Below, one piece after another: positions 9,479-26,474 of a stretch of DNA of 26,474 nt. The stretch's first letter is position 1; every line of letters starts with the position of its first letter. The stretch covers positions 1 to 26,474 of IMG/VR virus record IMGVR_UViG_3300033153_001082, one strand, 5' to 3'. A program made the position numbers and the translations under genes. The notes under the pieces are model-generated. The model did not search any database and was not told the DNA's origin. It was given only the letters and a program-made list of their open reading frames with translations. Source of the stretch: a virus.

Positions 9479-9889
9479 ATGTTAGAATTACTACAAATAG
9501 CACCAAACACAATTACATATAGTCAAACGGCAATTGTTGTTGTTTCAATCGTAGGATGGGTAATAAGTTTATGTGGTTTATACTTTGCTTTAAAACATGG
9601 TATAGAGAAGAATAAAACAAAAATTGAATCTGTTGAAAAAGACCATGATACTAATGTTAGGAACTTAAAAGAAAAATTGATTGAGGCCAAAACTAAAAAA
9701 GAAGCTATGAAAGCAGAATTTTCACTGGAGATAGAAAAGAAAGATGAATTAACACATAAAAGGATTGATGCAATTAGAACTGACTTCAAAGAGCATCAAA
9801 CAAGCTCAAACAATGAATTTAAGGTTGTTAGTTCAAATCTATCAGAGATTAAAGGAATGCTTACCCTACTTATGGAGCGAAAAAGTTAA
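9479..9889 (+). CDS. Membrane-anchored coiled-coil protein
   Basis: A 136-residue protein with one transmembrane helix at about residues 17-40 (TAIVVVSIVGWVISLCGLYF) and then about 90 residues of Lys/Glu-rich coiled coil (KKEAMKAEFSLEIEKKDELT), ending SEIKGMLTLLMERK. The short N-terminal tail and basic flank after the helix suggest N-out, C-in topology, though this is uncertain. The layout matches the shorter protein encoded at 22096. Possible roles are a lysis-associated or superinfection-related membrane protein; the sequence does not decide. The gene is last before a terminator. Confidence 0.65.
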   Translation: MLELLQIAPNTITYSQTAIVVVSIVGWVISLCGLYFALKHGIEKNKTKIESVEKDHDTNVRNLKEKLIEAKTKKEAMKAEFSLEIEKKDELTHKRIDAIRTDFKEHQTSSNNEFKVVSSNLSEIKGMLTLLMERKS

Positions 9890-21800: not shown

Positions 21801-22114
21801 AAAAACTATCATTCATAATAGTATTTTTTTATCTTGCTATTCAGTATGGTCAAAATGTTTTTGATCAAGGTTCTGATGTTAGGATTAATTTTTATTTTAT
21901 TGGAATGTCTTTTTTTCAACTTGGTGTTTCATTCATTCTTTATAAAGCAATTAAAAACGCTGCAACAACTTTTTTCCTATTCTTATGCTTTGGGGCTTTT
22001 TTAAATGAATTGTTGTTTAATGGATCTATAAACTATGTTGATGTTTCTTTTGGTTGTTTAGGTTTTATTTATACTTTGGTTGAAAAAAAAATATCATGGA
22101 AATTCAAGAAATAG
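21794..22114 (+). CDS. Polytopic membrane protein, holin candidate
   Basis: A 106-residue protein with about three or four hydrophobic segments: 5-18, 30-50 (FIGMSFFQLGVSFILYKAI), 56-72 (AATTFFLFLCFGAFLNELLF) and 80-95. The basic C-terminus (KKISWKFKK) should lie in the cytoplasm. It opens a run of small membrane-protein genes with the structure of a lysis cassette. Class and function cannot be fixed from sequence. It overlaps the next gene by 19 bp in another frame. Confidence 0.65.
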   Translation: MLKKLSFIIVFFYLAIQYGQNVFDQGSDVRINFYFIGMSFFQLGVSFILYKAIKNAATTFFLFLCFGAFLNELLFNGSINYVDVSFGCLGFIYTLVEKKISWKFKK

Positions 22115-22323
22115 CAGCATCAGTTGATTCACTAAAATTAATTAGTGGTTGTTTTGCCTTAATTATGGGGTTGCTGGTTTACATTTGGAAAACTGATAAA
22201 GCAAGAACGGAAAAAATGGATGAAAGAAATGAAAAAATGTTTGAAAGAATAAATGATACCCTATCAGAATTGAAAGAGTTAACAGCAAGACATGATGTAA
22301 AAATTGAAAACTTAGAAAAATGA
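22096..22323 (+). CDS. Single-helix membrane protein with coiled-coil tail
   Basis: A 75-residue protein with one transmembrane helix at 13-30 (LKLISGCFALIMGLLVYIW), then a charged coiled coil (residues 38-75, EKMDERNEKMFERINDTLSE). The layout is like the larger protein encoded at 9479 and like some phage holin-associated proteins. It overlaps its upstream neighbour by 19 bp and shares an ATGA with the next gene, so co-translation is likely. Confidence 0.65.
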   Translation: MEIQEIAASVDSLKLISGCFALIMGLLVYIWKTDKARTEKMDERNEKMFERINDTLSELKELTARHDVKIENLEK

Positions 22324-22583
22324 ATGCTATTTTAATGAAAATAATGTACCTTTTAATGGGTTCTTTTTTGTCAGTATTGGCAATAAAATACAAATCAATA
22401 AATAAAAATGAAATTTTAGTTCCTTTATTTTTTGGAACTATGGCTTATTGCTTCTCATTTTGGGGTGTTTCTTCTATATTTCACACTTCAGAGGGCTACC
22501 CTCCTCAGTGGTTTTTCTGGGTTACTGTTACACCACCTTTTTTATCAGCAGTTCTTTTAGTAGTAAACATTAAGAAAAAGTAA
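22320..22583 (+). CDS. Membrane protein with three hydrophobic segments
   Basis: An 87-residue protein with hydrophobic segments at about 4-22 (ILMKIMYLLMGSFLSVLAI), 32-52 (ILVPLFFGTMAYCFSFWG) and 63-83 (QWFFWVTVTPPFLSAVLLVV), ending in the basic NIKKK. Three helices, small size and location next to a DUF5675 gene fit a class I holin, but homologous proof is lacking. It starts in the ATGA shared with the gene before and ends 2 bp before the next. Confidence 0.6.
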   Translation: MNAILMKIMYLLMGSFLSVLAIKYKSINKNEILVPLFFGTMAYCFSFWGVSSIFHTSEGYPPQWFFWVTVTPPFLSAVLLVVNIKKK

Positions 22584-22585
22584 AA

Positions 22586-23020
22586 ATGGATAATAGAAAA
22601 AGAATTGTTAGAGATTACGATGCTATAATTGTAAGAGAAAAAAGCACTGAAACGCAAACTCTAGGAGAATTTAGTTATTTTCAAGATAGGGTTAAACTTA
22701 TTTTTTCTTGTAAAACTATAGAACTAGAAGTTGACTGTAACGCTGTAAGAGATGATGCAATTCCACCAGGATATTATACTGTTGTAAAAAGATATTCTGA
22801 GAAGTATAGGTGGCACTTTCATATAACAGGAGTTGAAGGAAGATCATTAATACTTATTCATAATGCCAACTATTCAAGACAACTATTAGGTTGTGTTGGT
22901 GTTGGTGCTTCTCATGTTGATATTGACAAAGATGGATTAGTTGATGTTACTAGTAGCAAATCAACTTTAAAGAGAATGAATAAGATTTTGCCAGAAGAAT
23001 TTATTTTAAAAGTACAATGA
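22586..23020 (+). CDS. DUF5675-like protein, possible lysis enzyme
   Basis: A 144-residue soluble protein without a signal peptide. It matches the DUF5675 pattern (PF18925) as I remember it: TLGEFSYF near residue 25, an acidic strand IELEVDCN, AIPPGYYTVVKRYS (59-72), and LILIHNANYSRQLLGCVGVG (88-107) with His92 and Cys103. The H-x10-C spacing and the GC motif recall L,D-transpeptidase (YkuD-like) active sites, where a Cys attacks peptidoglycan stem peptides; that link is inference. It sits in a run of membrane-protein genes, as a lysis enzyme would. Known DUF5675 proteins have no established activity to my knowledge. Confidence 0.65.
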   Translation: MDNRKRIVRDYDAIIVREKSTETQTLGEFSYFQDRVKLIFSCKTIELEVDCNAVRDDAIPPGYYTVVKRYSEKYRWHFHITGVEGRSLILIHNANYSRQLLGCVGVGASHVDIDKDGLVDVTSSKSTLKRMNKILPEEFILKVQ

Positions 23021-23130
23021 TGAATGACAATGATTTTAATGGCCTAGATAATAATATTAGTTGTGGAGTTATTGCTATTTTTTTATTGTTTGCTATAATT
23101 TCATTTATAATTTATAATTTAATTTTTTAG
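23017..23130 (+). CDS. 37-residue single-span membrane peptide
   Basis: ATGATG at 23017 overlaps the preceding stop (ATGA) and opens 37 codons: a polar, acidic N-terminus (MMNDNDFNGLDNN) and then one hydrophobic helix (residues 17-36, VIAIFLLFAIISFIIYNLIF). It ends 2 bp before the next gene. The tight coupling on both sides and the clear transmembrane helix support a real gene. It could be an antiholin, a pinholin or another membrane effector. Confidence 0.55.
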   Translation: MMNDNDFNGLDNNISCGVIAIFLLFAIISFIIYNLIF

Positions 23131-23132
23131 AC

Positions 23133-23306
23133 ATGAAACAAACAAGATTAAAATTAACCTTTTTCTTTGGGGTGTTAATCGCTATCCTTTGCGGTTTAGG
23201 AATGTTTAAAGATATGGAAAGCGTTGCTTTGGTTCTCGGTGGGGCTTTGGCGGGAATAGTTGGAAAATACAACCACGACGAAACTAAAAGACCTTCTGAC
23301 AAATGA
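23133..23306 (+). CDS. 57-residue two-span membrane protein, holin candidate
   Basis: ATG at 23133 opens 57 codons. Residues 8-25 (LTFFFGVLIAILCGLGMF) and 31-45 (VALVLGGALAGIVGK) are two transmembrane helices joined by a short loop (KDMES); the tail NHDETKRPSDK is charged. Two short spans and a small size are typical of class II holins, and the position between a possible lysis enzyme and spanin-like genes agrees. The stop is in an ATGA shared with the next start at 23303. Confidence 0.6.
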   Translation: MKQTRLKLTFFFGVLIAILCGLGMFKDMESVALVLGGALAGIVGKYNHDETKRPSDK

Positions 23307-23584
23307 TAAATAAATACTTTAATATAATAGTTGTAGTTCTACTTGTTTTGGTGCTGATTCAGGGATTCTTTTCACCTATTGAAGGTATTACACCAGAAGA
23401 GGAAATTTACCGTCTTAAAATACACGATTTAAACCAAGAGAAAGCACAACTACAAGCAGAAAACAATGAACTACATTCACAATTAAAAAACTTTGAAGAT
23501 GAAATCATTAAAAACGACAGCATTATTCATAATTCTTCTGTTGAGCAGCTTGACAGTATGTTCACAGATTACTTCACAAGATAG
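23303..23584 (+). CDS. Inner-membrane spanin (Rz-like) candidate
   Basis: A 93-residue protein with an N-terminal transmembrane helix at 7-22 (NIIVVVLLVLVLIQGFF) and then a periplasmic coiled coil at about 32-72 (EEEIYRLKIHDLNQEKAQLQ), ending with a polar tail. This is the plan of i-spanins, which join the inner to the outer membrane in the last step of lysis. A second gene begins inside it in another frame at 23499 and overlaps it for 86 bp, the arrangement of Rz/Rz1. The family cannot be named from sequence alone. Confidence 0.6.
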   Translation: MINKYFNIIVVVLLVLVLIQGFFSPIEGITPEEEIYRLKIHDLNQEKAQLQAENNELHSQLKNFEDEIIKNDSIIHNSSVEQLDSMFTDYFTR

Positions 23585-23870
23585 ATTATGTTTCAGTAAA
23601 AAGGAAGCGGTTCAAATTATGAAGGACTTAAAAAGGCTTGATATTTGCGATTCCATTACACAAAACCAAGCATTACAGATAATCAACTTTAAGTCCATAG
23701 CTGAAAAGGACAAAGAAGAGATTAAACTTCACATTAATAAGATTAACAACCAAGAAAAAGAGATTAATAAGATTAGTCTAAAACTTAAAATCTCTAAAAA
23801 ACTTACAATTATAGGTGTTCCAACAGCAATTGTTGGAGGTGTTATTGGAGGTTTTATACTCTCAAAGTAA
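23499..23870 (+). CDS. Outer-membrane or unimolecular spanin candidate
   Basis: A 123-residue protein from the ATG at 23499; a TTG two codons upstream (23493) is less likely. The N-terminus is a signal peptide (MKSLKTTALFIILLLSSLTV) followed by Cys21, then SQITSQ. LTVC is only a near-lipobox because Val at -1 is unusual, so cleavage by signal peptidase I before Gln23 is also possible. Residues 60-100 are coiled coil, and 103-121 (TIIGVPTAIVGGVIGGFIL) is a second transmembrane helix. Signal plus C-terminal span is the topology of u-spanins, whereas its nesting in the gene at 23303 is that of o-spanins. Five Cys or near-Cys positions (21, 31, 50) could form disulfides. Confidence 0.55.
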   Translation: MKSLKTTALFIILLLSSLTVCSQITSQDRLCFSKKEAVQIMKDLKRLDICDSITQNQALQIINFKSIAEKDKEEIKLHINKINNQEKEINKISLKLKISKKLTIIGVPTAIVGGVIGGFILSK

Positions 23871-25575: not shown

Positions 25576-26474
25576 ATGGCTAAGATTGATTTAGGAATAA
25601 GCGTGTATGATGCAGCAAAAGAAAGAATAGAGTTTACTTTTGATAATTTTAAAAAAGTTTATGTTTCTTTTAGTGCTGGAAAAGATTCTACTGTTATGCT
25701 ACACTTAGCAATGGATGAAGCAAAAAAAAGGAATCAAAAAATAGGTGTTTTGATAGTTGATTTGGAAGGTCAGTATAAGTTCACAATAGAACATATTCAT
25801 GAAATGATAAAACAATATGAAGAATGGATTGATTTGTATTGGGTCTGTTTACCTCTTCATTTAAGAAATGCTGTGTCTGTTTATGAACCATTTTGGAAGT
25901 GTTGGGACAATGAGAGAAAGAGTGACTGGATAAGAACACCACCAAAAGAAGCAATAGTTGATCCTGAATATTTCCCTTTCTTTACTGATGGTATGGAGTT
26001 TGAAGAATTTGTACCAGAGTTTGGAGAATGGTATTCAAAAGGAGAGTTAACAGCTTGTATGGTTGGTATTAGGACTGATGAAAGTTTGAATAGATTCAGA
26101 ACAATAGCAAGTACTACTAAAGTACGGTTTAAAGACAAACAATATACAACTTTAGTTACAGAAAATGTTTTTAATTTATATCCAGTTTATGACTGGAGAA
26201 CTGAAGATATTTGGATTTATCACTCAAAGTTCCCAAATAAGAGACTAAACTATTTATATGAGTTGATGAATAAGGCTGGTCTATCTATACACCAACAAAG
26301 AATTTGCCAACCTTATGGAGATGACCAGAGAAGAGGTTTATGGCTATTTCATTTGATTGAACCAGAAACATGGGCAAAAGTTGTTGCTAGAGTTAATGGC
26401 GCTAATAGCGGTGCTTTATATGTTAATGAAAGTGGATCAATTACTGGATACAATAAAATATCTAAACCAGACAA
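25576..26474 (+). CDS. PAPS-reductase-like protein, DUF3440/IbrA type (3' end outside window)
   Basis: The frame is open from the ATG at 25576 to the window edge; 299 residues are visible. Residues 31-40 (SFSAGKDSTV) are the PP-loop (SxGKDST) of the adenine-nucleotide alpha hydrolase/PAPS reductase family. Further family marks are GIRTDESLNR (164-173) and YPVYDWRTEDIWIY (202-215). The later part (KAGLSIHQQRICQPYGDDQR) fits the DUF3440 extension of IbrA/YbdN-type proteins rather than sulfate-assimilating CysH. Family members include sulfur-inserting enzymes such as DndC; the reaction here is unknown. The upstream gene is 3 bp away and almost certainly co-expressed. Confidence 0.8.
   Translation, partial: MAKIDLGISVYDAAKERIEFTFDNFKKVYVSFSAGKDSTVMLHLAMDEAKKRNQKIGVLIVDLEGQYKFTIEHIHEMIKQYEEWIDLYWVCLPLHLRNAVSVYEPFWKCWDNERKSDWIRTPPKEAIVDPEYFPFFTDGMEFEEFVPEFGEWYSKGELTACMVGIRTDESLNRFRTIASTTKVRFKDKQYTTLVTENVFNLYPVYDWRTEDIWIYHSKFPNKRLNYLYELMNKAGLSIHQQRICQPYGDDQRRGLWLFHLIEPETWAKVVARVNGANSGALYVNESGSITGYNKISKPD

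Follow-up and report, generated by a model that had tools for sequence, protein, structure and literature searches.

We identified two overlapping genes, here called A and B, that probably encode a spanin-like lysis pair working without a lipid, whichever membrane takes the C-terminus of B. The pair lies in a virus record of 26,474 bases (IMGVR_UViG_3300033153_001082, positions 1 to 26,474), which was analysed as a whole and is referred to as the window. Four lines of sequence evidence support this reading, namely the architecture of the two proteins, their position in a lysis cassette, the replacement of the pair by unimolecular spanins (u-spanins) in the same slot of related phages, and the conservation of both reading frames; on these grounds the spanin-like pair proposed in the first-pass annotation was upheld. 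By published definition, the pair is neither a two-component spanin nor a u-spanin.

The overlapping gene pair and its lysis cassette

The pair is located 3' of a DUF5675 gene and several small membrane proteins, holin-like genes among them. The features are as follows.

22096..22323, plus strand: BhlA-holin-like protein with an N-terminal transmembrane segment (TM) and a coil (PF10960, E = 1.7e-4, 21.9 bits, just under the cut-off of 22.6)
22320..22583, plus strand: 87-aa protein with multiple TMs in the same cassette as A and B (open reading frame, ORF)
22586..23020, plus strand: DUF5675 protein (PF18925, E = 2.8e-22), in the slot of the endolysins in related cassettes (slot comparison)
23133..23306, plus strand: 57-aa holin-like protein with two hydrophobic segments (ORF; homologue at the same place in contig L002)
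23303..23584, plus strand: gene A, i-spanin-like protein of 93 aa (ORF, TM and heptad scores, homologues)
23499..23870, plus strand: gene B, partner protein of 123 aa (ORF, homologues, AlphaFold2 helices)
23499..23584, plus strand: A/B overlap of 86 nt, with B in the +1 frame of A (pN comparison of the window with L117)
23499..23564, plus strand: predicted signal peptide of B, with cleavage between SLTVCS and QITS (SQ invariant in homologues; Q-rule, PMC5837995)
23802..23861, plus strand: C-terminal hydrophobic Gly-rich segment of B, LTIIGVPTAIVGGVIGGFIL (hydrophobicity scoring; conserved character in A8)

A Pfam search with the 57-aa holin-like protein (23133..23306) gave no match. With holin-like genes and DUF5675 upstream of the pair, and endolysins in its relatives, the linkage to holin and endolysin genes that Kongari et al. 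(2018) use as a supporting criterion for spanins is present. Between the DUF5675 and holin-like genes lies an ORF of 36 aa that has a single hydrophobic segment (23020-23130), and Cellulophaga phage phi39:1 has a 33-aa hydrophobic gene immediately upstream of its DUF5675. A PAPS-reductase-like gene (25576-26472; PHROG 2302, E 6e-76), which includes the start of a DUF3440 domain, is cut off by the end of the window.

An i-spanin is defined by an N-terminal TM domain and a periplasmic domain, often with a coiled coil (Kongari et al. 2018). A has a TM at about residues 6-24 (simplified dG about -2.5) and a coiled coil at about residues 36-70 (heptad contrast 3.76, equalled by one of 500 shuffles), which agrees with the helix plus coiled coil that the first-pass annotation saw in this gene. 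All dG values given here come from a simplified, custom-coded scale and are valid for comparison only. The periplasmic part of A has no Cys, and a conserved C-terminal motif, EQLDSMFTDYFTR, is encoded within the 86-nt overlap. Searches of A against Pfam and PHROGs returned coiled-coil matches only, and its weak matches to Rz-like PHROG families (E 0.07-0.27) were driven by the coiled coil. Another N-TM protein is encoded among the structural genes of the window (9479-9889); it has a long charged region, probably a coiled coil, and weak matches to PHROGs of Rz-like spanins (E 0.003) and to FtsL_2.

Spanin gene pairs can be embedded, overlapped or separated (Kongari et al. 2018). A and B are overlapped rather than nested, because B extends 286 nt beyond the stop codon of A; of the earlier description of a second gene nested in the first in another frame, the start inside A and the +1 frame were correct and the nesting was not.

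An unlikely alternative is that A is a holin and B a secreted periplasmic antiholin that binds the one-TM protein A, similar to T and RI of T4. Like A, the T holin combines an N-terminal TM with a periplasmic domain, and small membrane proteins within a lysis cassette would fit such a role. However, holin candidates are already present at 22096 and 23133, with others in the cassettes of the relatives L025, L116 and L117, and both the overlapped +1 layout and the alternation with lipobox-bearing u-spanins (see below) indicate an outer-membrane step.

Export signal, fold and C-terminus of B

We placed the start of B at ATG 23499 and not at TTG 23493, since the ATG is common to L116 and L025. The protein comprises a signal peptide, Cys31 and Cys50, a helical body, a basic stretch and the Gly-rich hydrophobic C-terminus, and AlphaFold2 modelled helices at residues 34-46 and 52-122 (mean pLDDT 70.7). 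Searches of B against Pfam and PHROGs gave weak, uninformative matches only. The signal peptide noted in the first-pass annotation was found again, but as a signal peptidase I type. Its end fits the Bacteroidetes Q-rule, in which signal peptidase I substrates carry Gln at +1 (PMC5837995), as B has a small residue at -1 and Gln at +1 (VCS followed by Q). The Cys of the signal peptide is replaced by Y in L116 and by F in L025, while the following SQ is invariant. We infer that B is cleaved by signal peptidase I at the Q-rule site and carries no lipid.

The earlier annotation had also given B a C-terminal transmembrane span. A hydrophobic segment is indeed present, but it is marginal as a span, with a simplified dG of about +1.8 against -2.5 for the TM of A.

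The same annotation took B for a unimolecular spanin, that is, a lipoprotein with a C-terminal TM, nested with an i-spanin. In favour of this reading are the signal peptide, the coil, the C-terminal hydrophobic segment, the Cys that ends the signal peptide (LTVC) and the occurrence of true u-spanins in the same slot of related phages. u-spanins have an N-terminal lipobox, and the known families are beta-rich in the periplasm and lack cysteines (PMC6139136). B departs from this on each point: V at -1 of LTVC breaks the lipobox consensus [LVI][ASTVI][GAS]C (PMC6139136), the Cys is not conserved, the invariant SQ with its +1 Gln fits signal peptidase I, and the protein is helical with periplasmic Cys31 and Cys50. 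B as a u-spanin was accordingly discarded on the lipobox test, and we regard the nested u-spanin as very improbable. Nor is B an o-spanin in the sense of Kongari et al. (2018), an outer-membrane lipoprotein with a lipobox. A scan of all frames of the window for lipobox ORFs found none, and the complete phage JQ and the contigs L025, L116 and L117 yielded no plausible candidate; as a control, the scan recovered the known u-spanin of Ingeline and that of L002, and a laxer form recovered that of P12002S.

Related pairs and alternation with u-spanins

Neither A nor B gave a match when searched directly against phages and viral contigs. Relatives were reached by using the neighbouring DUF5675 gene as bait (80 loci) and then a two-sequence profile. 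The bait led to L025/L026, which carry both proteins (B 39% and A 42% identical), and the profile led to L116, L117 and L120. Both proteins and their overlap are kept in four distinct relatives (L117, L120, L116 and L025), with identities of 42-63% for A and 39-60% for B, the latter highest in L117 (60%). Between the window and L117, pN was 0.05 inside the overlap against 0.33 outside in the A frame, and 0.09 against 0.31 in the B frame, and these low values in both frames of the overlap indicate that both are constrained.

For a wider set, we used a detector of the plan in which an N-TM protein is overlapped by a signal-peptide protein. On 1.18 Mb of loci it gave 17 matches on the sense strand and none on the antisense strand or in three Markov-shuffled copies (with the Q-rule); given that these loci are enriched for such genes, 17 versus 0 checks the detector and does not measure how frequent the plan is. 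By eye, two of these matches were doubtful, and the pair of prophage L147 was added from a later search. The 15 same-plan pairs are those of the window, L117, L120, L116, L025, Tenacibaculum phage JQ (L015), phi39:1, Croceibacter phage P2559S (L018), L067, L122, L123, L079, L083, L047 and a Flavobacteriaceae prophage. All are in the +1 frame with Gln at +1 of B, and the overlap measures 71-92 nt in 13 of them.

Homologues with one frame broken would have spoken against a pair; both frames are open in 14 of the 15, which favours it. The exception is L120, where a T6 run in the 3' tail of B, outside the overlap, has lost one base, probably through a sequencing error, the alternative being real variation. 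In L120 (4001-4351) this loss shifts the hydrophobic C-terminus of B out of frame. A chance ORF was ruled out by the conservation of both frames in homologues and by the absence of detector matches in antisense or shuffled DNA.

Several members occur in named phages. In JQ, B is the unannotated ORF 28027-28395, whose signal peptide was missed; in P2559S the pair consists of gp29 and ORF 27508-28065, of which the annotated gp30 is the 3' part; and in phi39:1 it is gp31/gp32. Because gp30 of P2559S was annotated from an internal start, the signal peptide of B was missed there too. The phi39:1 gp31 (L013 4417-4716) is labelled 'putative alpha-amylase', but it occupies the A position and is an N-TM protein of 99 aa. 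A point against the reading is that P2559S also encodes a lipoprotein (29131-29478), 1.1 kb downstream of B.

The members vary around the common plan. The coiled coil of A was not significant in the shuffle test in JQ, L147, phi39:1 and P2559S, which weighs against the spanin-like reading. Of the 15 pairs, 11 have a Cys in mature B, a feature of two-component spanins, whose periplasmic cysteines form intermolecular disulfides (Kongari et al. 2018), and not of u-spanins. In most pairs the C-terminal segment of B is flanked by 4-9 K/R. This segment is clearly hydrophobic in JQ (simplified dG -0.8), and the B of phi39:1 lacks the C-terminal anchor altogether. By sequence pattern, the tails of the B proteins of L123 and P2559S are beta-like and finish with an aromatic residue. 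In L123 (1100-1510) the tail (B residues 93-134) weakly matches Pfam DUF6808 (E 6e-4, below the cut-off). AlphaFold2 gave it no confident beta structure (pLDDT <50), so that the tail rests on the sequence pattern and the weak DUF6808 match. The L123 protein is closely related to B proteins with Gly-rich tails, which would make this an anchor swap within one family.

When profiles were compared, the B families of window type and of JQ type were linked (hhalign probability 85%, E 5.8e-6) over the N-terminal half, which is partly signal peptide; the remaining B families may be homologous or convergent. No significant link was found between the A families (probability 8%). An HMM of the JQ-type B searched against 301 genomes of one family returned nearly all coiled-coil or signal-peptide noise and one good prophage pair, and searches with the B of P2559S returned only near-identical copies.

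The gene neighbourhoods place the pairs beside lytic enzymes. The pair directly follows a GH108 muramidase in L122 (E 3e-25) and Amidase_3 in P2559S; in JQ, Amidase_3 is followed by one small gene and then A; M15-like genes lie upstream in L116, L117 and L123 (weak matches), and DUF5675 lies upstream in the Flavobacteriaceae prophage. Among the 80 DUF5675 loci, this slot is taken either by u-spanins with lipobox and C-terminal TM (18 distinct cases) or by A/B pairs (6 distinct cases), and no locus has both. Even close neighbours differ: L002 and L024, with DUF5675 proteins 65-69% identical to that of the window, carry a u-spanin, and L025 (64%) carries the pair. It is mainly this replacement by u-spanins in the same slot that assigns the pair to the spanin step. 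One could argue that A and B are envelope proteins unrelated to lysis, for example in exclusion or virion assembly, which stand beside the endolysin by chance, and half of the cassette has no assigned function; nevertheless, the repeated adjacency to DUF5675 and to different endolysin families in unrelated phages and a prophage, together with the mutual exclusion with u-spanins, makes this quite unlikely.

DUF5675 itself occupies the slot of recognised endolysins (window 22586-23020; phi39:1 gp30, L150; L147 4038-4466), and the complete phage phi39:1 has no annotated endolysin. On these two observations, DUF5675 may be an undescribed peptidoglycan-cleaving enzyme.

Proposed geometry and relation to known spanins

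We propose that A and B form a spanin-like lysis device of a Bacteroidota phage, in which A acts as the i-spanin, with its N-terminal helix in the inner membrane and its coiled coil reaching into the periplasm. B would be exported by Sec and cleaved at the Q-rule site without being lipidated, its new N-terminus probably becoming pyroglutamate. Its N-terminal region, with Cys for a covalent dimer, may bind the conserved C-terminal motif of A, and its long helix would bear the C-terminal membrane anchor, putatively a marginal Gly-rich helix in most members and a beta-like tail in two. This anchor would enter the outer membrane, so that A and B joined end to end could span the periplasm and, after holin and endolysin action, collapse and so fuse or disrupt the outer membrane. 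Binding of A to B, the membrane of the anchor and outer-membrane disruption are predictions.

An outer-membrane position of the C-terminus of B is slightly favoured over the inner membrane because the segment is marginal, its periplasmic flank is basic, two members have beta-like tails and the joined length could be sufficient. Since AlphaFold2 did not confirm the tail of L123 and the B of phi39:1 has no anchor, we infer this anchoring rather than observe it. Almost as likely, though doubtful in its own right, is a type I topology of B in the inner membrane (N-out, C-in). Both subunits would then be anchored there, and the outer membrane would be reached by the free N-terminal region of B or by a third factor, from host or phage. 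A hydrophobic segment at the C-terminus that is followed by hardly any tail is most simply a stop-transfer anchor, and the segment of JQ is clearly hydrophobic. In contrast, the basic periplasmic flank in most pairs contradicts the positive-inside rule, the two beta-like tails are of outer-membrane type, and the helices of A and B cover the periplasm only when joined end to end; with the C-terminus of B in the inner membrane, the complex would not obviously span it. As this geometry is a sub-case of the spanin-like pair, the confidence in it overlaps with that in the best explanation.

The spanin-like pair most resembles the overlapped spanins of P2 (LysB/LysC), Mu and T5 (SpaninDB, PMC6139136), which share the +1 overlap (-1 is also known there), a type II coiled-coil first product, an exported second product, periplasmic cysteines and holin/endolysin neighbours. 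It differs from them in that B lacks a lipobox, has a predicted Q-rule signal peptidase I cleavage site and ends in a hydrophobic or beta-like anchor; moreover, no sequence similarity to these or to any other proven spanin was detected. The embedded genes Rz/Rz1 of lambda likewise have the start of the second gene within the first, in the +1 frame; they differ in that most of B lies beyond A and in that Rz1 is a lipoprotein rich in proline. The u-spanins, such as T1 gp11 and those of Cellulophaga phage Ingeline, L024, L027, L038 and L040, share with B the N-terminal export signal and hydrophobic C-terminus, and in DUF5675 loci they hold the same slot after DUF5675; B differs in having no lipobox, in being helical with Cys and in always being accompanied by A. 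The Gln at +1 common to B of all 15 pairs and to Bacteroidetes Q-rule substrates (PMC5837995) reflects a host export rule and not a functional family. In sum, A and B may work like a two-component spanin. More tentatively, they could represent a lipid-free two-component class, widespread in Bacteroidota phages, whose outer-membrane subunit is processed by signal peptidase I and anchored C-terminally, with a polarity opposite to that of known o-spanins; we consider this generalisation possible and short of probable.

Kongari et al. (2018) foresaw other spanin topologies, with a type I C-TM protein or an outer-membrane protein, and listed P2559S as 'spanin-less'; the pair fits this predicted gap and is present in that very phage. 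A survey from 2025 kept O-spanins only where a lipid box was present, and its conclusion was that u-spanins are the only type used by Bacteroidetes phages (PMC12596118). In the literature we searched, mostly outside subscription journals, we found no description of the pair. As B lacks the defining lipid anchor, such pairs may be overlooked in phages thought to be spanin-less. If the reading is true, spanins can function without lipidation, and a class of lysis genes escapes those annotation pipelines in which a lipobox is obligatory. Pairs of the same plan occur in cultured phages (JQ, phi39:1 and P2559S), in which this can be tested.

Single genes of another kind were also seen in the same slot in L019 (22998-23621, P2559Y_0023), L046 (4584-5141) and L068 (3155-3748). 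They combine an N-terminal inner-membrane helix with a C-terminus resembling outer-membrane beta strands and are possibly a reversed unimolecular spanin; P2559Y is likewise on the published 'spanin-less' list.
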